DNA of 64,000 bases from Alphaproteobacteria bacterium (GTDB lineage: Bacteria > Pseudomonadota > Alphaproteobacteria > Puniceispirillales > Puniceispirillaceae): assembly GCA_016779005.1 (NCBI GenBank), contig JADHOL010000004.1:1-64000 (forward strand). Reading direction: 5' to 3'. Within the stretch, counting starts at the first letter, position 1; every line of letters starts with the position of its first letter. A program made the position numbers and the translations under genes. The notes beneath the pieces are model-generated. The model had not been told where the DNA came from. It saw nothing but the letters and a program-made list of their open reading frames with translations, and searched no databases. Positions 2,664 through 56,334 of this stretch are shown one piece after another.

Positions 2664-4157
2664 TTACGCTAGTTTCGCAGCTCTTCTGGCTTTGAAGCGA
2701 GATAAGGCTACCGCTGTAATAGATAGTATGGAAAGGCTTATTAGCGTAATATTAATGGTTCCGCTGAAGAATATTTTTTGAACCCCAACAGCATCAGAAA
2801 TATATAATGCCTGCACTAGCGATGGCTCGATGATTGGCCCAAGAATAAAGCCTAAGCCAATTGGACCCGGGTGAAACCCTAATCTTCGAGCAAGGAATAC
2901 AAAAATACCTATGGCTAACATTAAATAAACATCAAAGATATTATTTCGTATGGCATAGGCTCCTATAATAGCTAGAAACATGATAAGAGGAGCCAGTAGG
3001 CGAAGGGGAATTTTTATTACTTTCACAAGTAAAGGTGTTGCAAGCAAACCAACGAAAAATACAACTATCCCGGCTATAAACATGGACCATCCAAAAGAAT
3101 ATACTAGAACGCCATCCGTTGCGAATAATTCAGGGCCAGGATTTAGACCCCTTAGCATTAATGCGCCTGCTATTACTGCAGCTGGAGATGAGCCTGGTAC
3201 GCCAAGAGTAACTAGCGGTATCATAGCAGCAGGTGCAGCCGAATTATTGGCAATTTCAGATGCGGTCACACCATGTATGTTACCTTTTCCAAACTTGGTC
3301 TTATCCTTACTCCAGCGGACAGCTTCATTATAGGATACGATGGCAGCAATAGGACTTCCCGCTCCTGGAAGTATTCCGATAAAGCTTCCTATAGATGCAG
3401 AACGCAAAAAGTGAATGGGTTTTGATAACACCTTAATCATTGTTTTTAAGATGACGCCTTTTTCTGCTCGATATTCAGCAATATATTCTTGTTTTCTAAG
3501 GCCTAAAACCATAGACAAAACTTGTGGAACAGCAAAAACGCCAATTAGAGCAGCAACAAGTGATACCCCGCCCCGAAGCTCTGGAATGTTCATTGTAAAA
3601 CGATTAAGCTCGGTTGCATGGCTGATGCCGATGCAACTTATCAATAATCCGATGGCACCGCCAGCCAAGCCCTTCAAGATAGAATCACCAGCGAGACTTC
3701 CGATAATGGTAAGTGCAAAAATACCCAGCCAGAAAAACTCTGGCGGCCCAAATTTTAAGGCAATTGATATCATTGGCCAAGCAAGTAAAAGGTAACAAGC
3801 CGCGCCAAACATAGTGCCAAGAGCGGAGCTAAAGCAGGCTGCAACGATGGCTTCCTGTCCCCTTCCTTGTTTAACCATTGGGTGACCATCAAAAGCTGTG
3901 GCCATGGCAGCAGGAGTTCCTGGTGTGTTAACAAGACAAGCTGGAATTGCATCTGAAAACATTGCACAGACATAGAGTCCACCTAGCATAGCAATACCTT
4001 CCCCAGTTGGTAGGGCAAATGTAAAAGGCACCAATAGTGCCGTCCCCATAGTTGCTGTCAGTCCAGGTAACGTTCCAACGATTAGACCCAGCAAGATACC
4101 AATAGTCATATACATTAAATAAGAAGGGCTTAAAGCTATGAACAATGCTTCAATCAT
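2664..4157 (-). CDS. tctA: tripartite tricarboxylate transporter large permease, TctA family
   Basis: A 497-residue integral membrane protein with about eleven or twelve hydrophobic segments. The N-terminal GILLGLIVGTLPGLTATMG (residues 20-38) is the family signature of TctA, and a second glycine/proline-rich stretch (FIGILPGAGSP, near residue 260) is the matching motif of the second half. TctA forms the translocation channel of an ion-driven importer that receives its substrate from the periplasmic TctC protein. An upstream ACGGAGC supports the start. Substrate within the family ranges from citrate and tartrate to aromatic acids and cannot be read here. Confidence 0.93.
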   Translation of the reverse strand: MIEALFIALSPSYLMYMTIGILLGLIVGTLPGLTATMGTALLVPFTFALPTGEGIAMLGGLYVCAMFSDAIPACLVNTPGTPAAMATAFDGHPMVKQGRGQEAIVAACFSSALGTMFGAACYLLLAWPMISIALKFGPPEFFWLGIFALTIIGSLAGDSILKGLAGGAIGLLISCIGISHATELNRFTMNIPELRGGVSLVAALIGVFAVPQVLSMVLGLRKQEYIAEYRAEKGVILKTMIKVLSKPIHFLRSASIGSFIGILPGAGSPIAAIVSYNEAVRWSKDKTKFGKGNIHGVTASEIANNSAAPAAMIPLVTLGVPGSSPAAVIAGALMLRGLNPGPELFATDGVLVYSFGWSMFIAGIVVFFVGLLATPLLVKVIKIPLRLLAPLIMFLAIIGAYAIRNNIFDVYLMLAIGIFVFLARRLGFHPGPIGLGFILGPIIEPSLVQALYISDAVGVQKIFFSGTINITLISLSILSITAVALSRFKARRAAKLA

Positions 4158-17500: not shown

Positions 17501-18859
17501 CTATCCAGACAATATAGAAGGTAGCCATAATGCTAAAACAGGTAATGAGAATAAAATAGATATTCGGATTAGTTCTGCTAGAAAGAATGGAGCAACGCCT
17601 TTGAATATTTCTGTCATATCAATATCATCTGCAAGAGAGGCAATTACAAAAACATTCATTCCAACAGGGGGTGTGATAAGCCCGACTTCAACCACAATTA
17701 GAGCAAGAATACCAAACCAGATTTTTAAATCTTGTGTAATCATTCCATAGCCTGCAGCATCTGCTGTGATATATAAACCGCCATTAAGCTCTACGAGCAC
17801 AGGCCAGAAAAAAGGGATTACCAGTAATATCATTGAAAGGCTATCCAACAAGCAGCCAAGCAGTATCATTCCTAACAGCAATACAATTAAAACAGCCATC
17901 GGCTCAAAACCGGCAGCCAATATCCATTCTGCTGTGGCTTGCGGGAGTCCAATTCGGCTCATGTAAATTTTCATTAATTCTGCACCAAACAAAATTAAAT
18001 ATATCATTCCAGAGGTGCCAGCTGTTTCTAAAAGAGCCTCTTTGATATCATTGATGGTTAGTTTTTTTTGGATAAATCCAAGTAACATAACAAGTCCCAC
18101 CCCCACCGAAGCAGCAGGAGTTGGATTGTAAAACCCGGCATATAAACCGCCTAGCACAACTATGAATACAAAAAGAATGGGCAGAACCCCGATTAACGCC
18201 TGCCTTTTCTCAACTCTGTCAGTCTTATGTGTTTGTGGGGCAGCATTAGGCCAGATAGCAACAAATATAGCTATTGTTGCCAGAAAAAGGCATATCGCTA
18301 ATATACCAGGTATCAGGGCGGCCGCGAACATGGATACGATATTTACCTCCACGATAAGGGCATAGATAATAAGCACAACAGATGGAGGTATTAAAATCCC
18401 CAGCACACCGCCAGCGGCCAGAACGCCAGTAGAAAGGGATGCGGAATAATGATTCTTGCGTAATTCAGGTAATGCAACGCGCCCCATTGTAGATGCGGTT
18501 GCGATTGAAGAGCCGCAAATAGCACCAAAACCCGCGCAAGCAGAAATCGCCGCCATCGCACTGCCGCCCCGCAGCCATCCAAGCCAAGCATTTGCGGCCC
18601 TGAATAATGCAGCGCTTAGACCTGTTCTAGAAGCCAACGCCCCCATCAGGATAAACAAAGGAACTACAGATAAATCATAAATTGAGAATTGCCCGTAGGC
18701 TAAGGTTTTGAGCTGATTAAAAACGGGACTAATGCCATTGACGCTTATAATTCCAAGACCGCCTACTAATATCATTGCATAGGCAACCGGCATTCTTAGC
18801 ATAATCAGAAGGATTAGAAACCCAAGAGAGCTTATACCCAATAGAACAGAATCAATCAT
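17501..18859 (-). CDS. dctM: TRAP transporter large permease, DctM family
   Basis: A 452-residue membrane protein with about twelve hydrophobic segments, matching DctM, the Na+-coupled translocation subunit of TRAP transporters. Recognisable stretches include SVVPLFILMGALASRTGLS, GFGAICGSSIATASTMGRVALPELRK and VGLITPPVGMNVFVI. Its first four bases overlap the end of dctQ (ATGA, 18856-18859), showing translational coupling. It completes a dctP-dctQ-dctM operon read on the minus strand. Confidence 0.95.
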   Translation of the reverse strand: MIDSVLLGISSLGFLILLIMLRMPVAYAMILVGGLGIISVNGISPVFNQLKTLAYGQFSIYDLSVVPLFILMGALASRTGLSAALFRAANAWLGWLRGGSAMAAISACAGFGAICGSSIATASTMGRVALPELRKNHYSASLSTGVLAAGGVLGILIPPSVVLIIYALIVEVNIVSMFAAALIPGILAICLFLATIAIFVAIWPNAAPQTHKTDRVEKRQALIGVLPILFVFIVVLGGLYAGFYNPTPAASVGVGLVMLLGFIQKKLTINDIKEALLETAGTSGMIYLILFGAELMKIYMSRIGLPQATAEWILAAGFEPMAVLIVLLLGMILLGCLLDSLSMILLVIPFFWPVLVELNGGLYITADAAGYGMITQDLKIWFGILALIVVEVGLITPPVGMNVFVIASLADDIDMTEIFKGVAPFFLAELIRISILFSLPVLALWLPSILSG

Positions 18860-19380
18860 GAACTATGTCCAGAATCGTTAGAAGTAACATAGTCTCTATC
18901 AGAAGATAATTCCAAAATAATTGTCATGATACTTGCCATCGCTAAAAGGCATAGCGAAATCAGAATTGGTATAAAAGCTATCCAAACAGGAAATTGTAGA
19001 ATGGCAGTGGTATAGTCATATTTTTTTTGATCCAGCATGCCATCAGTCATGCGCCATAAAAGTAAAATTGAAAATAATAAGGCAACAACGGCACCGCCAA
19101 TTCGAAGTAGTAGAACCGTTTTGTTATTTGCCCAAAAGGTGAATATATCAGCTGTCACATTATGCCTATGTAGCTGGCAGTAGGGCAGAAAACAAAAAAC
19201 AGCAACAGCCACCCCAATTTGTGTTAGCTCGAAATCGCCTGGTACATGGATTAGCACAATACCGCCTATGATAGAGCCTATATTAAGGCTAACCACGGAT
19301 AACAAAATCAAGCCACCAACAAGTGCCCAGACACTGATTAGCTTCTCCCCTAATTGAGTTAACAATCGAAAATTGGGCAT
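18856..19380 (-). CDS. dctQ: TRAP transporter small permease, DctQ family
   Basis: A 174-residue protein with four hydrophobic segments. The second hydrophobic part ends in FCFLPYCQLHRHNVTADIF, which matches the conserved DctQ stretch with Q-x-x-x-H-V. DctQ packs against DctM and helps dock the binding protein. It starts 12 bases after dctP and overlaps dctM by four bases, so the three genes form one operon. Confidence 0.92.
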   Translation of the reverse strand: MPNFRLLTQLGEKLISVWALVGGLILLSVVSLNIGSIIGGIVLIHVPGDFELTQIGVAVAVFCFLPYCQLHRHNVTADIFTFWANNKTVLLLRIGGAVVALLFSILLLWRMTDGMLDQKKYDYTTAILQFPVWIAFIPILISLCLLAMASIMTIILELSSDRDYVTSNDSGHSS

Positions 19381-19392
19381 TATTAGCCTTTA

Positions 19393-20463
19393 TTATGTGT
19401 CATTCAGATGAGATGCAATTGCTTTGCGTGCTTTGGTGACTAGCGCCTCGCCGTCAATATTTTTAGCTGCCACATTATCAATCCATCTATCAACCACGCT
19501 TGATAATATATCTGTGAAGCGCTGTGTCTCTTCTTTGCTAAGGACACTATGCGTATTGCCAGCTTCTATAGCAATTGTAATTCCTTCTTTTTCTGCTTGT
19601 AGTAGTTTTTGTCCAATTACAACTCCCCATTCAGGACCAGATGCGTCTGTGAAAGCGCGTTGTATATCTTCTGGAAGGCTGTCCCATTTAGCTTTGTTCA
19701 TGGATGTCTGGAACATAAGAGAGCCTATACGCTCTTGATTATATCCCTCTATCTGGAACTTTGTTTGATGCTGAAGCTGTAATGCTGGAATAATTTCCCA
19801 CGGCACAAAAGCACCATCAACGACCCCCTTTTGCAGGGATTGTGGTAGTGCTGGAACTGGCATTGCAACAGGTATGCCGCCCAGTGCTTCAATACTCCAC
19901 GCGCCTGTGCGTGAGGGCGTTCTTATTTTTTTTCCTATTAAATCAGATGGAGAGCGGACAGTGCTATCTCGCATATGAATAGCGTTTCCGGCATGCACGC
20001 TCAAAAATAGGACTTCTAGACCTGTGTAATCTGCTTTTAATTCTGTCTCAAAAAGGTCGTATATTGCTAGATTTACTGAAATTGGATCATTAGTAAAAAT
20101 AGTGGGAAGCTCAAATACTTCTGAGCGCGGAAACATTCCGGGGGTATATCCATTTACCGTCCAGATAATATCTACAACACCATCGCGTGCTTGCTGGACA
20201 AGTTCGGGTGGCCTGCCACCAAGTGTCATTGACGGAAAAATTTCAATTGAAACCTGTCCATTACTATTCTGTTCTACCCTATTTACCCATGGCTCTAATA
20301 TCTGCGTTTGCCAATTTGAGTTTGCACCAAGAAAATGATGAAATTTAAAATTATAATCTGCTGCTAGTGCTGATTGGGAGAATAAAAGACAAAAGCAAAG
20401 TATAAATAAGTTCCCAAAATAGTTGGTCAGAACAAGTGTTGGTTTTGTGGCCATCATTTTCAT
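19393..20463 (-). CDS. dctP: TRAP transporter periplasmic solute-binding protein, DctP family
   Basis: A 356-residue exported protein. A signal peptide covers about residues 1-34 (hydrophobic NLFILCFCLLFSQSALA). The mature part begins ADYNFKFHHFLGANSNWQTQ and contains the IRTPSRTGAWSIEALGGIPV region, where the conserved arginine binds a carboxylate. LPQSLQKGVVDGAFVPWE follows, as in the C4-dicarboxylate/mannitol-like DctP group. The ligand is most likely an organic acid. A second DctP-family gene at 52554-53477 lacks a signal peptide and a permease. Confidence 0.93.
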   Translation of the reverse strand: MKMMATKPTLVLTNYFGNLFILCFCLLFSQSALAADYNFKFHHFLGANSNWQTQILEPWVNRVEQNSNGQVSIEIFPSMTLGGRPPELVQQARDGVVDIIWTVNGYTPGMFPRSEVFELPTIFTNDPISVNLAIYDLFETELKADYTGLEVLFLSVHAGNAIHMRDSTVRSPSDLIGKKIRTPSRTGAWSIEALGGIPVAMPVPALPQSLQKGVVDGAFVPWEIIPALQLQHQTKFQIEGYNQERIGSLMFQTSMNKAKWDSLPEDIQRAFTDASGPEWGVVIGQKLLQAEKEGITIAIEAGNTHSVLSKEETQRFTDILSSVVDRWIDNVAAKNIDGEALVTKARKAIASHLNDT

Positions 20464-51245: not shown

Positions 51246-51381
51246 CTGGCCATTTTTAGTTCTGCTTGCACCAATAGCGCTTTTACATGCTGGACGCTTT
51301 GCGGGATGGACCATGTTAGGTGGTTGTGCTGAGAATAACAATCTTCTAAAATAGAACAGGTCTTTGTAAAGGAAAAATTTG

Positions 51382-52527
51382 ATGGCGGTAGTAACGACAA
51401 TCGAGGAATTTCGCCAGCAGGCAAAACGGCGTGTGCCAAAAATGTTTTATGATTATGCTGATTCTGGTTCCTGGTCAGAGACAACATACCGCTCAAACGA
51501 AACCGATTTTGCACGCATAAAATTTCGCCAACGCGTTGCCATAGACATGTCGCAGAGAACGACCAGCACCATACTTGCCGGTCAGCCTGCAAGTATGCCT
51601 GTTGCCATTGCCCCAACAGGTTTAACTGGAATGCAAATCGCTGACGGTGAAATATTAGCAGCGCAGGCAGCAGCTGAATTTGGCGTGCCATTTACCCTAT
51701 CAACCATGTCTGTATGCTCAATCGAAGATGTGGCTAAACATAGCTCAGCTCCTTTTTGGTTCCAGCTATATGTGATGAAAGATCATGATTTTTCGAAAAG
51801 ACTCGTTCAACGCGCAAAGGCTGCGGAATGCTCTGCGCTTGTTGTAACGCTTGATTTGCAGCTTTTAGGGCAGCGTCATAAAGATATAAAAAATGGGTTG
51901 TCTACACCGCCAAAACTCACTTTTAAGAATATTGCTGATATGGTGACTAAGCCTAGATGGTGCCTTGGAATGCTTGGAACCAAAAGACATCATTTTGGCA
52001 ATATTGTTGGCCATGTTGATGGGGTGTCTGATCTGTCATCCTTATCATCTTGGGTGAGTGACCAATTTGACCTACAGCTAGATTGGGATGATATTGCACG
52101 AATTCGTGATTGGTGGGGAGGCACATTAATTCTGAAGGGTATTATGGATCCAGAAGATGCAAAACAGGCTGGAAAAATTGGCGCTGATGCAATTGTCGTA
52201 TCAAATCATGGCGGAAGACAGCTTGACGGGGCAGAATCCTCAATTGCGATGTTGCCAGAAGTCGTAGCTGCCGTTGGCAATGAGATAGATGTGTGGATGG
52301 ATAGCGGTGTTCGCTCTGGACAAGATGTCCTAAAAGCAATAGCCCTTGGTGCCAAAGGGGTTATGATTGGACGCGCATTTATCTACGCTCTTGGCGCAAA
52401 TGGAAAGCAAGGTGTAAGCGACGCGCTCCATATCATTCACAAAGAATTAGATTACACAATGGCCATGTGCGGGCATCGCGATATTCATAACGTCGACAGA
52501 CAGATACTTCGAAACTGCCCCTTTTAA
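51382..52527 (+). CDS. FMN-dependent L-2-hydroxyacid dehydrogenase/oxidase (LldD family)
   Basis: About 381 residues of the FMN-dependent alpha-hydroxyacid dehydrogenase family. AKRRVPKMFYDYADSGSWSE opens it (YDYADSGS binds FMN), AIAPTGLTGMQIADGE follows near 75, and the catalytic histidine is in VVSNHGGRQLDGAESSI near 275. GVRSGQDVLKAIALGAKGVMIGRAF is the phosphate-binding end. It would oxidise L-lactate or a similar acid and pass electrons to quinone. AAAGGA is eight bases before the ATG at 51382, which is preferred over a TTG one codon earlier. The gene follows the MobA-like fusion by 136 bases. Confidence 0.92.
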   Translation: MAVVTTIEEFRQQAKRRVPKMFYDYADSGSWSETTYRSNETDFARIKFRQRVAIDMSQRTTSTILAGQPASMPVAIAPTGLTGMQIADGEILAAQAAAEFGVPFTLSTMSVCSIEDVAKHSSAPFWFQLYVMKDHDFSKRLVQRAKAAECSALVVTLDLQLLGQRHKDIKNGLSTPPKLTFKNIADMVTKPRWCLGMLGTKRHHFGNIVGHVDGVSDLSSLSSWVSDQFDLQLDWDDIARIRDWWGGTLILKGIMDPEDAKQAGKIGADAIVVSNHGGRQLDGAESSIAMLPEVVAAVGNEIDVWMDSGVRSGQDVLKAIALGAKGVMIGRAFIYALGANGKQGVSDALHIIHKELDYTMAMCGHRDIHNVDRQILRNCPF

Positions 52528-52553: not shown

Positions 52554-53477
52554 TTACGTATTAGATAGCAGATCAAAAGGGGTGTTCCCAAATTGATCTC
52601 GTGCATCTTTGTATAAGGGGGCGATTTTTTCTTGGAAAAGGGCGGTTTGCGCTTCTGTTAGCGAATGGATTTGCCCCCCTGCCTCAATTATTAATTTCTC
52701 TGCTATTCTCACATCTGTTTCAATTTGAGTGCGTTGCCACTGCATTGCATCGCCCGCCGCTTCTATGATGGCCTGTTTTAAGGGCTCAGGCCAGAGGTAG
52801 AATTGGCTTCGATTACACATTATCGCGCGTGAAATATAGAAGTGATTAGAGAGCGTATGATGCTTATGATAGTTATGAACGCCATAGGTGGTGGTGTTGG
52901 TATAGGGGTTTTCCTGCGCATCGAGTGCGCCTGTTTGTATGTCTGTTATGGCTTGCGTAAGATCCATCCTAATCGGATTTGCGCCAAGAAGTTCAAAAAA
53001 ACGAGAATGAATATCGCTTGGCAATACCCTTATCTTTAAATCCTTCATATCATCAGGCTGGCTGATAGCTCGAATTGAGTTAGATATCTGCCGAAACCCG
53101 TTTTCCAGATAGCCTAGTATCTTGTAGTTTTTTCTATCTTCAATTCGGTTTGTTAAATATTGCCCAAGGGCGCCATCCATTGCCCCTCTTGCATGTGCGT
53201 TATCTCTGAATAAAAAAGGTAAATCAACAAATCCAAGCTCTGGCACATCATCTGTAAGATAACTGGTCGACTGATAGGTTACGGTTAATACCCCTTGATC
53301 TGTCATCCATAAAATATCTTCAGATTTATACCCTAAATCCATGACATTATAGACATATTGTACATCTACTAAATCAGGAAATAGAGTTGAAATTTTATCT
53401 CCCATTATTTTAAGGGACTTTGAAAAAGAGGTGTTTTCAGGGCCATAGCCCGCAAAAATAATTTGAAATCGCTGCAC
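52554..53477 (-). CDS. DctP-family TRAP binding protein lacking a signal peptide
   Basis: A 307-residue DctP-family protein. IRVLPSDIHSRFFELLGANPIRM near residue 149 with the ligand-binding arginine, and DIQTGALDAQENPYTNT near 179, are clear family segments; the domain is full length. The GTG start is directly followed by QRFQIIFAGYGPENTSFS, which corresponds to the mature first strand of other DctP proteins. There is no hydrophobic leader, and an in-frame stop (53505-53507) lies nine codons upstream. No dctQ or dctM is adjacent. It is therefore a predicted cytoplasmic or misannotated-start binding protein; an undetected frameshift upstream is the main alternative. Confidence 0.82.
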   Translation of the reverse strand: MQRFQIIFAGYGPENTSFSKSLKIMGDKISTLFPDLVDVQYVYNVMDLGYKSEDILWMTDQGVLTVTYQSTSYLTDDVPELGFVDLPFLFRDNAHARGAMDGALGQYLTNRIEDRKNYKILGYLENGFRQISNSIRAISQPDDMKDLKIRVLPSDIHSRFFELLGANPIRMDLTQAITDIQTGALDAQENPYTNTTTYGVHNYHKHHTLSNHFYISRAIMCNRSQFYLWPEPLKQAIIEAAGDAMQWQRTQIETDVRIAEKLIIEAGGQIHSLTEAQTALFQEKIAPLYKDARDQFGNTPFDLLSNT

Positions 53478-53512
53478 GTTCTTAAAACCCTTATTTAAAA
53501 TATATTAGCAAG

Positions 53513-53552
53513 CCCTAGAGCGAGCTATAATACCCTAGGATGGGCTATAATA
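53513..53552. repeat. imperfect 20-bp tandem repeat upstream of the DctP-like gene
   Basis: CCCTAGAGCGAGCTATAATA (53513-53532) is followed immediately by CCCTAGGATGGGCTATAATA (53533-53552), sixteen of twenty bases identical. Each copy contains a TATAAT sequence. The pair lies 36 bases upstream of the DctP-like GTG start and could be paired promoter or regulator sites, or decay of a duplication. Confidence 0.55.
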
Positions 53553-53724
53553 ATTGTCACCCTTAAAGTAGAATTTATCTGTTTTTTACTATTTTTTATC
53601 AGTGAGATACGCTTTTATCGAGTTCCATCATATGCAATACTAGGTCAATTTATTCACGCATCATACTCATTTCATATCAAGTTCGTGCTATGATGTGAGT
53701 GATTTTAATGTAAGGAGCACATAA

Positions 53725-54174
53725 ATGCATTGGACAGTTTATCTCTCTGGCGAAATACACACAGACTGGCGCGATATAATCGAAGCGCAATCAGCTACAG
53801 CAGAACTTCCTGTTTCCTTCACCTATCCTGTAACAGATCATGCGGCATCTGATGATTGCGGTGTGGAAATTATGGGGTCTGAGGCATCTAAATTTTGGCA
53901 TGATCATAAAGGTGCTAAACTTAATGCTATTAGAACGCGCACCCATCTAGAGCAGGCAGATATTGTTGTGGTTCGATTTGGCGATAAATACAAGCAGTGG
54001 AATGCCGCTTTTGATGCTGGTTATGCAGCAGCTCTTGGCAAACCGTTAATCATAATGCATGGCTCAGACCACCAGCATGCGCTTAAAGAAATTGATGGAG
54101 CAGCATTAGCGGTTGTGGATACACCAGAGCAAATAACGCGCATTCTAACCTATGTTATCAATGGAACATTATAA
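53725..54174 (+). CDS. ytoQ: YtoQ family protein
   Basis: A 149-residue protein that matches the YtoQ family along its length: WTVYLSGEIHTDWRDIIE at the start, HGSDHQHALKEIDGAALAV near the end, and LEQADIVVVRFGDKYKQWNAAFDAGYAAALGKPLI between, a nucleoside 2-deoxyribosyltransferase-like fold with a substrate-proximal DAGYA. The biochemical role of YtoQ is not established. TAAGGAGC lies upstream of the ATG. It is followed 64 bases later by the HpsN-like gene, suggesting one operon. Confidence 0.85.
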   Translation: MHWTVYLSGEIHTDWRDIIEAQSATAELPVSFTYPVTDHAASDDCGVEIMGSEASKFWHDHKGAKLNAIRTRTHLEQADIVVVRFGDKYKQWNAAFDAGYAAALGKPLIIMHGSDHQHALKEIDGAALAVVDTPEQITRILTYVINGTL

Positions 54175-54238
54175 GACATCCTAATATCAATATTATAAAA
54201 AAAATGTGAAATTAAGAAAAGAGCTTGAAGGAGTTACG

Positions 54239-55549
54239 ATGGCAATTCGGTATTTAAAAGAGGGTAAATCAGCATTAGAGCGTTCTGAGGATGATGCTAA
54301 GGTACGTCAGATTGTTGAGACAACACTTAGTGATATTGAAGCTCGAGGGGACGCGGCGGTACGTGAGCTTGCCGAAAAGTTTGATAATTATTCGCCGCCT
54401 TCTTATCGGTTGTCAGAAAGCGAAATACAAGCCTTGATTTCGGAAGTATCACCAAGGGATATTGAGGATATAAAATTCGCACAAGCCCAAGTGCGCAAAT
54501 TCGCTGAAGCACAGCGCGCATCTATGCAAGATATTGAGGTTGAAACATTGCCTGGTGTAATTCTTGGCCATAAAAATATACCAGTTCAATCTGTTGGGTG
54601 TTATGTTCCAGCAGGCAAATTTCCAATGGTTGCATCTGCTCATATGTCAGTACTTACAGCATCTGTTGCTGGTGTGCCGCGCATTGTTGCATCCACGCCC
54701 CCATTTCAAGGCAAGCCAAATCCTGCCGTTATTGCCGCGATGCATATGGGCGGTGCAGATGAGATATATGTACTTGGCGGAATGCAGGGAATTGGTGCGA
54801 TGGCACTTGGAACCGAGACAATAGAGCCAGTTCATATGCTGGTTGGTCCAGGCAATGCGTTTGTTGCAGAAGCAAAAAGACAGCTATTTGGAAAGGTTGG
54901 TATTGATTTATTTGCAGGACCTACAGAAACAATGGTCATAGCAGATGAAACAGTAGATGCAGAAATATGTGCAACCGACTTATTAGGTCAGGCAGAGCAT
55001 GGGTATAATTCACCAGCAGTATTGCTGACAAACTCGCAAAAACTTGCAGAAGATACCTTGGCAGAAATAGATCGGCTTTTGATGATTCTGCCAACATCAG
55101 ATACAGCTTCGGTAAGCTGGCGTGATTATGGCGAGGTCATTGTCTGTGATACCTACGATGAAATGCTACAGATGGCAGATGAGATAGCATCAGAACATGT
55201 TCAGGTAATGACGGATAGAGATGATTGGTTTTTGGAAAAAATGACCTGTTATGGCGCGCTGTTTTTGGGGCCACGCACTAATGTTGCCAATGGAGATAAG
55301 GTGATAGGAACAAACCACACATTGCCTACTAAAAAAGCAGGAAGATATACTGGCGGATTATGGGTTGGTAAATTCTTAAAAACACATTCCTATCAGAAAA
55401 TCACTACTGATGAAGCCGCTGCCCAAATAGGGGCATATGGCTCTAGATTGTGCATTTTGGAGGGGTTTGTTGGACATGCAGAACAATGCAATGTTCGAGT
55501 AAGGCGATATGGGGGTCAAAATGTCGGTTATGGCGAAGCGGCAGAATAA
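54239..55549 (+). CDS. hpsN: histidinol dehydrogenase-family enzyme, probable sulfopropanediol 3-dehydrogenase (HpsN-like)
   Basis: About 436 residues. The enzyme belongs to the HisD family: [20 protein letters not shown] near residue 105, [23 protein letters not shown] near 192, and the zinc/catalytic region [16 protein letters not shown] near 245. It resembles HpsN (2,3-dihydroxypropane-1-sulfonate to 3-sulfolactate) in [15 protein letters not shown] and in [18 protein letters not shown] housekeeping hisD is less likely because no his gene adjoins it and an SDR follows 14 bases later. The start at 54239 follows AAGGAG by a few bases; a GTG 11 codons upstream is weaker. The sulfonate assignment is by resemblance only. 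Confidence 0.78.
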
Positions 55550-55563
55550 TAGGGGCTTGTAAC

Positions 55564-56334
55564 ATGGATACATCACTGCCACGCACACCCTCTTTTAAGT
55601 TAGCTGGAAAACGAGCGTTGGTTGCAGGCGCCTCATCTGGAATTGGTGTTGGGTGTGCGGTAGCATTATGCGAGGCAGGTGCCTCTGTCACGCTGGCGGC
55701 TCGCTCTAAGGATAGCCTGCTCGAATTGCAAAGCCAAATGACCTCTCTTGGCTGGGATGCAACAGCCTGTCCAATAGATGTAACCAATATTAGTGCAACA
55801 AGAGAGATGATCGAAAGCAAGCCACCATTTGATATCTTGGTAAATAGTGCTGGAATGGCACGCCACGGCGCAAGCTTGGAGACGCGCATTGAAGATTTTG
55901 ATGCTGTTTGTGACCTTAATATCAAAGCAGGCTATTTTCTAAATCAGGCTGTTGCAAAGCAGCTAATCAATGCAGGAAAGCCTGGATCAATAATGACAAT
56001 ATCATCTCAGATGGCAGTGGTAGGCGGTATTGACAGAGCCGTATATTGTGCAACCAAGCATGCCGCAGAGGGATATACAAAGTCACAGGCAATTGAATGG
56101 GGCGCGCATCAAATACGCGTTAATACAATTTGCCCTACTTTTGTTAGAACAGCGCTTAGCCAATCTACTTTTGCAAACCCTGAGCGGAAGAAATGGATTG
56201 AAAGCAAGATAAAGCTAGGCCGTGTCGCAGAAATTGAGGATATAATGGGTGCTGTCGTGTTCCTAGCCTCTGATGCCAGTGCAATGATAACAGGCACTTC
56301 CCTTTTAATTGATGGTGGTTGGACAGCAGATTGA
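55564..56334 (+). CDS. short-chain dehydrogenase/reductase
   Basis: About 256 residues, a classical SDR with the NAD motif GASSGIGVG near residue 22, the active-site motif SAGMARHG near residue 98, catalytic Ser in TISSQMA near 144 and YCATKHAAEGYTKSQAIEW carrying Tyr and Lys near 160. It ends in the family tail DASAMITGTSLLIDGGWTAD. The ATG at 55564 has AGGGG eight bases upstream; longer readings would run inside the preceding gene. It is only 14 bases from the HpsN-like gene, which suggests the pair oxidises a diol in two steps (2- and 3-position), with the exact substrate unknown. Confidence 0.9.
   Translation: MDTSLPRTPSFKLAGKRALVAGASSGIGVGCAVALCEAGASVTLAARSKDSLLELQSQMTSLGWDATACPIDVTNISATREMIESKPPFDILVNSAGMARHGASLETRIEDFDAVCDLNIKAGYFLNQAVAKQLINAGKPGSIMTISSQMAVVGGIDRAVYCATKHAAEGYTKSQAIEWGAHQIRVNTICPTFVRTALSQSTFANPERKKWIESKIKLGRVAEIEDIMGAVVFLASDASAMITGTSLLIDGGWTAD

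Follow-up and report, generated by a model that had tools for sequence, protein, structure and literature searches.

DctP-family proteins normally capture nutrients outside the cell membrane. The window analysed here, a stretch of 64,000 nucleotides of alphaproteobacterial DNA, encodes a member of this family for which a first-pass annotation found no signal peptide, and the locus raises the question of whether a complete DctP protein is kept inside the cell and what it would do there. Three features define the gene and its start:

52554..53477, minus strand: leaderless DctP-family (PF03480) protein of 307 aa with a GTG start, member of the GYGP type of the clade described below
53488..53492, minus strand: Shine-Dalgarno-like site AAGGG, ~10 nt upstream of the DctP GTG
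53505..53507, minus strand: in-frame TAA that blocks a longer DctP start in the same frame

The protein matches PF03480 over its full length (8.3e-57; 193 bits against a cut-off of 23.4) and scores 137 bits with NCBIfam model NF037995 (cut-off 50) and 154 bits with TIGR00787, under the cut-off of 175. Its AlphaFold2 model is a complete fold with a mean pLDDT of 94.5, in which the first beta-strand is formed by residues 4-9, and its alignment to the mature forms of solved TRAP binding proteins starts at residue 1. Given the position of strand 1 and this alignment, only the leader is missing, and the Pfam match and model alignment together confirmed the earlier description of a full-length DctP beginning at the mature N-terminus. 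The upstream in-frame stop was likewise present, though the "nine codons" given for its distance are nine sense codons, with the stop itself as the tenth. That no signal peptide can be added in frame also held, and no alternative leader was found in any frame of the 247-bp divergent intergenic region. A Pfam domain search detected no fused DNA-binding or effector domain.

The missing leader is shared by close relatives. We compared nine further genomes from the genus, which is a SAR116 lineage. Eight contain an orthologue with 81-98% identity; in the remaining one, which is 73% complete, the DctP gene and the neighbouring histidinol-dehydrogenase-family (HDH) gene are both missing. All eight orthologues are leaderless and begin at the same position as the window protein, most with a Shine-Dalgarno-like AAGG or AAAGG before the start, and in three (G004, G005 and G009) the ATG is preceded, one codon away, by a TAG. 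Thus, neither a signal peptide nor a lipoprotein leader, as expected of a periplasmic TRAP receptor, is present in the window protein or any orthologue. All nine copies known from the genus are intact, and comparing the window gene with its orthologues gave a dN/dS of 0.04-0.06, indicative of purifying selection. Identical starts, the TAG codons and this low dN/dS show that the leader has long been absent and that this state has been maintained. The first-pass annotation had named a sequencing frameshift or a leader in another frame as a possible refutation; the leaderless orthologues rule out both for the stretch from 53478 to 53724.

Leaderless DctPs extend well beyond the genus. Another family of the order contains a leaderless relative with 52% identity to the window protein (G064), and two further genomes of that family carry a second leaderless group (28% identity), whose start lies 11 bp past the stop codon of an amidohydrolase gene. 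With a protein of this second group as query, 40 of 136 SAR116-order genomes were matched at E <= 1e-30, every match being an open frame of ~283-326 aa, which leaves no room for an ordinary leader. Profile searches also revealed another alphaproteobacterial family, first seen as four genomes in a class sample, in which 21 of 24 genomes encode clade DctPs in up to three copies each; three further clade loci are L034, L036 and L038. The clade comprises ~80 leaderless DctP proteins in alphaproteobacteria. When 398 genomes from the whole phylum were surveyed, no further members emerged, the next best protein scoring 210 bits compared to at least 256 bits for full-length clade members outside SAR116. 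Distant relatives outside the clade have a signal peptide wherever the N-terminus is readable. The comparison of homologues suggested by the first-pass annotation therefore gave a uniform answer: the genus orthologues, the 52%-identical protein and every other clade member whose N-terminus was read lack a leader.

Phylogenetic analysis of 83 DctPs placed the 26 leaderless representatives on one side of a single branch with 100/100 support, recovered in all 200 bootstrap trees. The tree was midpoint-rooted and some long branches were flagged, none of which splits the leaderless group. Loss of the leader is one change on this tree: leaderless DctPs are a single old clade in which the signal peptide was lost once. 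HMM scores of 383-458 bits for the clade against at most 230 bits for signal-peptide DctPs show the same separation; there is some circularity in this gap, since members of the clade went into the profile. By the loop behind strand 1, the clade divides into at least two types, GYQG and GYGP. Two broken members were also observed, at G081:C14:3354-4247 (L137) and in G108:C23 (L147), one with an internal TAA and the other without the first residues of the frame, reflecting either decay or assembly error.

Linkage to a TRAP permease is mostly lost as well. The genes nearest to the window DctP are lldD, ytoQ and HDH, with no DctQ or DctM gene linked, and no permease gene is found among the conserved neighbours in the genus. 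The genome contains seven DctP genes, of which the other six each adjoin a DctM gene and the window DctP alone does not. The earlier statement that there is no permease is accordingly correct locally, but elsewhere in the window, at 17501-20463, there is a full TRAP operon of the ordinary kind, with a leader-bearing DctP, DctQ and DctM. Among 17 representative clade loci, DctM is directly adjacent in one, a TAXI-type operon (G431) where the clade gene lies ~44 bp downstream of a TAXI binding protein and fused TRAP permease.

To describe the surroundings of the gene, the following features are needed:

53725..54174, plus strand: ytoQ (PF11071/TIGR03646), divergent neighbour whose position is kept throughout the genus
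54206..55549, plus strand: HDH, histidinol-dehydrogenase-family enzyme; real start probably 54239
55564..56334, plus strand: short-chain dehydrogenase (SDR) in the same operon as ytoQ and HDH; start probable
53623..53637, no strand: imperfect palindrome TTSCAT-N3-ATGSAA between the divergent genes, candidate shared operator
53513..53552, no strand: pair of imperfect direct repeats of 20 bp (16/20 alike), without conservation across the genus

The adjoining YtoQ-HpsN-SDR set named in the first-pass annotation is real: ytoQ-HDH-SDR is divergent from DctP, and the nearest solved relative of the HDH is the sulfopropanediol 3-dehydrogenase HpsN. Across the genus, DctP is accompanied by this divergent operon, a convergent molybdopterin/NTP-transferase gene and a variable lldD-like gene. 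The latter lies between DctP and the NTP-transferase gene (51379-52527 in the window; L073:10524-10829); some genus members have it, others do not, and the G007 copy is shortened; it represents a recent gain or loss. HDH orthologues occur across the order with 64-98% identity, along with a second paralogue at ~48%, and HDH-SDR is found across the order without DctP. We therefore dropped the HpsN-type HDH as the general partner of the clade, as the link holds only in the window genus. Outside the genus, ytoQ was not found beside HDH, which is usually accompanied there by SDR; the missing ytoQ suggests that the HDH substrate may be other than sulfopropanediol.

The palindrome lies in the longest conserved block of the genus intergenic alignment, a length of 19 columns that none of 20,000 column shuffles attained. 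This conserved block between divergent genes suggests that DctP and ytoQ-HDH-SDR are under shared control. The rest of the genome has a single exact copy of the palindrome, inside coding sequence, so a genome-wide regulon site was rejected, and no regulator gene lies beside DctP in the window. The 20-bp tandem repeats reported next to the gene do exist but have no bearing on DctP: two copies are present in the window and in the 98%-identical G006, a single one in G007 and none elsewhere in the genus, a strain-level distribution that sets them outside the phenomenon and led us to reject them as a functional part.

Across the clade the neighbourhood is catabolic. In a census of 101 ORFs around the 17 representative loci, Gfo/Idh/MocA oxidoreductases were the commonest family (12), followed by IlvD/EDD dehydratases, Amidohydro_2 proteins, 6-phosphogluconate/3-hydroxyisobutyrate-type dehydrogenases and alpha/beta hydrolases (5 each). 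Components of TctABC were found 4 times each, as close neighbours in 4 of the 17 loci. Which enzymes adjoin the gene depends on the subclade, and the clade as a whole is not tied to one pathway. Small proteins lie directly beside leaderless DctPs in several loci (L194:6905-7639, L198:8375-9115, L066:1991-2290 and 3293-3592), including DUF1330, a weak DUF4286 match and a protein with a WYxxxHL motif; they are possible functional partners.

The pocket indicates what might be bound. R129, R150 and N190, the Arg-Arg-Asn acid clamp, are invariant in the 26 clade representatives and, together with E189 and H212, are common to the clade and transport DctPs. In TRAP binding proteins the acid group is coordinated by these two arginines (PMC11668362, PMC4646407). 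With the sugar-acid binder DctPAm/CxaP of Advenella among the nearest solved structures, the clamp makes a hydroxylated organic acid the likeliest ligand. No solved structure of a clade member was found, the best scoring 194 bits, under the clade range. Clade-specific residues are N126, S72, G10-Y11, N194, G199 and T208; within the clade N126, N194 and D172 show almost no variation, whereas transport DctPs seldom have them. Clade members average 2.2 cysteines per protein compared to 0.3 in the comparison DctPs, which at first appeared to support cytoplasmic residence. Order-matched controls showed that most SAR116 signal-peptide DctPs also have two cysteines; cysteine content is thus not decisive and was dropped as proof.

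With the whole clade lacking an export tag, binding of an organic acid inside the cell, rather than feeding of a transporter, is the most likely activity. In our preferred reading, held with modest confidence, a complete DctP domain in the cytoplasm binds an acid that is a substrate or intermediate in the catabolic pathway encoded next to it and acts as a sensor, buffer or escort, so that the suggestion of a cytoplasmic sensor or metabolite carrier in the first-pass annotation stays the best one. This old DctP clade lost its signal peptide once and its TRAP permease link too, while retaining the two-arginine clamp to hold a carboxylate or similar acid group. The pathway served at the window locus would be ytoQ-HDH-SDR, which may share its divergent control region with DctP, and the protein would serve it by sensing, buffering or escorting a ligand inside the cell. 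Computation shows the full-length fold, the missing leader, its conservation, a single origin, the conserved ligand residues and the catabolic surroundings; from these features we infer that the protein stays in the cytoplasm, which class of ligand it takes and that it senses or escorts this ligand.

The main rival, which we regard as unlikely, is that the DctP fold has turned into a cytoplasmic enzyme (e.g. an isomerase, lyase or lactone-acting enzyme) for a carboxylate intermediate, with the clade-specific pocket residues being catalytic. The location of clade genes within catabolic clusters with hydrolases, dehydratases and dehydrogenases would suit an enzyme, as would the nearly invariant N126, N194 and D172 and the precedent of other SBP folds that became cytoplasmic proteins with other functions (PMC9602780). 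Yet residue conservation among the 26 representatives revealed no clear catalytic set and no lysine, histidine or cysteine that is both invariant and specific to the clade; R129, R150, H157 and H212 are also found in transport DctPs, and varying operon partners fit a binding role better than one reaction. The TctABC genes close by in 4 of 17 loci and the G431 gene behind a TAXI-TRAP permease would instead fit a cytoplasmic partner of uptake that receives or senses acid from TTT (TctABC), TAXI-TRAP or other permeases at the inner membrane face. This we consider improbable, given that the window genus has no permease among its conserved neighbours and that the permease type varies by locus.

Two further explanations were considered. 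Fold and ligand residues match those of exported DctPs, as they would if the protein were still periplasmic, exported without a classical leader or from an overlooked start; the stop directly ahead of the ATG in three orthologues, the start 11 bp past the previous gene's stop in another subclade and a first strand already at residue 4 make this very improbable. An orphan gene with no DctQM nearby could also be what is left of a TRAP operon after truncation or a frameshift, but the orthologues refute this: a gene under purifying selection, intact in nine genus members and belonging to an old monophyletic clade is no remnant, and we give the idea almost no weight. Returning to intracellular acid binding, we consider it quite probable that one DctP lineage lost export once and that two alphaproteobacterial groups use the resulting stand-alone intracellular acid receptor or enzyme for a number of catabolic pathways. 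After transport and fused sensors, this would be a third role for the DctP fold.

This reading matters for annotation. NF037995 scores the window protein far over its cut-off, so that such genes would be counted as marine uptake capacity, for example in SAR116; if they are cytoplasmic, these counts are wrong for ~80 proteins. The clade is also a test case for the passage from transport receptor to intracellular receptor or enzyme, in which a known ligand-binding rule guides ligand screens. In the literature searched, which covered few subscription papers, no description of a leaderless DctP clade was found, whereas a survey of 49 model strains reported that ~1% of SBP Pfam-profile matches are cytoplasmic single-domain proteins with other functions (PMC9602780). 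Cytoplasmic SBP-fold proteins in general are thus already known.

The closest known systems are the TRAP DctP proteins (PF03480), including Advenella DctPAm/CxaP (7bbr), Verminephrobacter 4p9k and SiaP, which in structural re-ranking were alike over the whole length of the fold (Z 34-39, 1.6-2.4 A) and have the Arg-Arg-Asn acid clamp in common with the window protein at ~20-28% identity. Unlike them, the window protein has no signal peptide and no DctQM and belongs to a separate clade, with the signature AGYQG/GYGP at strand 1, N126, N194 and S72-Y73. The cytoplasmic proteins of the 49-strain survey likewise have a leaderless SBP-type fold, the survey giving the category only and no such DctP clade. 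Orphan periplasmic binding proteins of the Bug/TctC type (PMC5812351) also lack a linked permease, yet are exported, unlike the clade. In Firmicutes, a PucR-type HTH is followed by a DctP domain in L042:10765-12672, L056:2145-4211 and also L041, near TRAP binding-protein genes. These proteins are probably cytoplasmic TRAP-ligand sensors; though not close relatives, being HTH-fused and elsewhere in the DctP tree while the window protein has no DNA-binding domain, they indicate that a DctP domain can work inside the cell.
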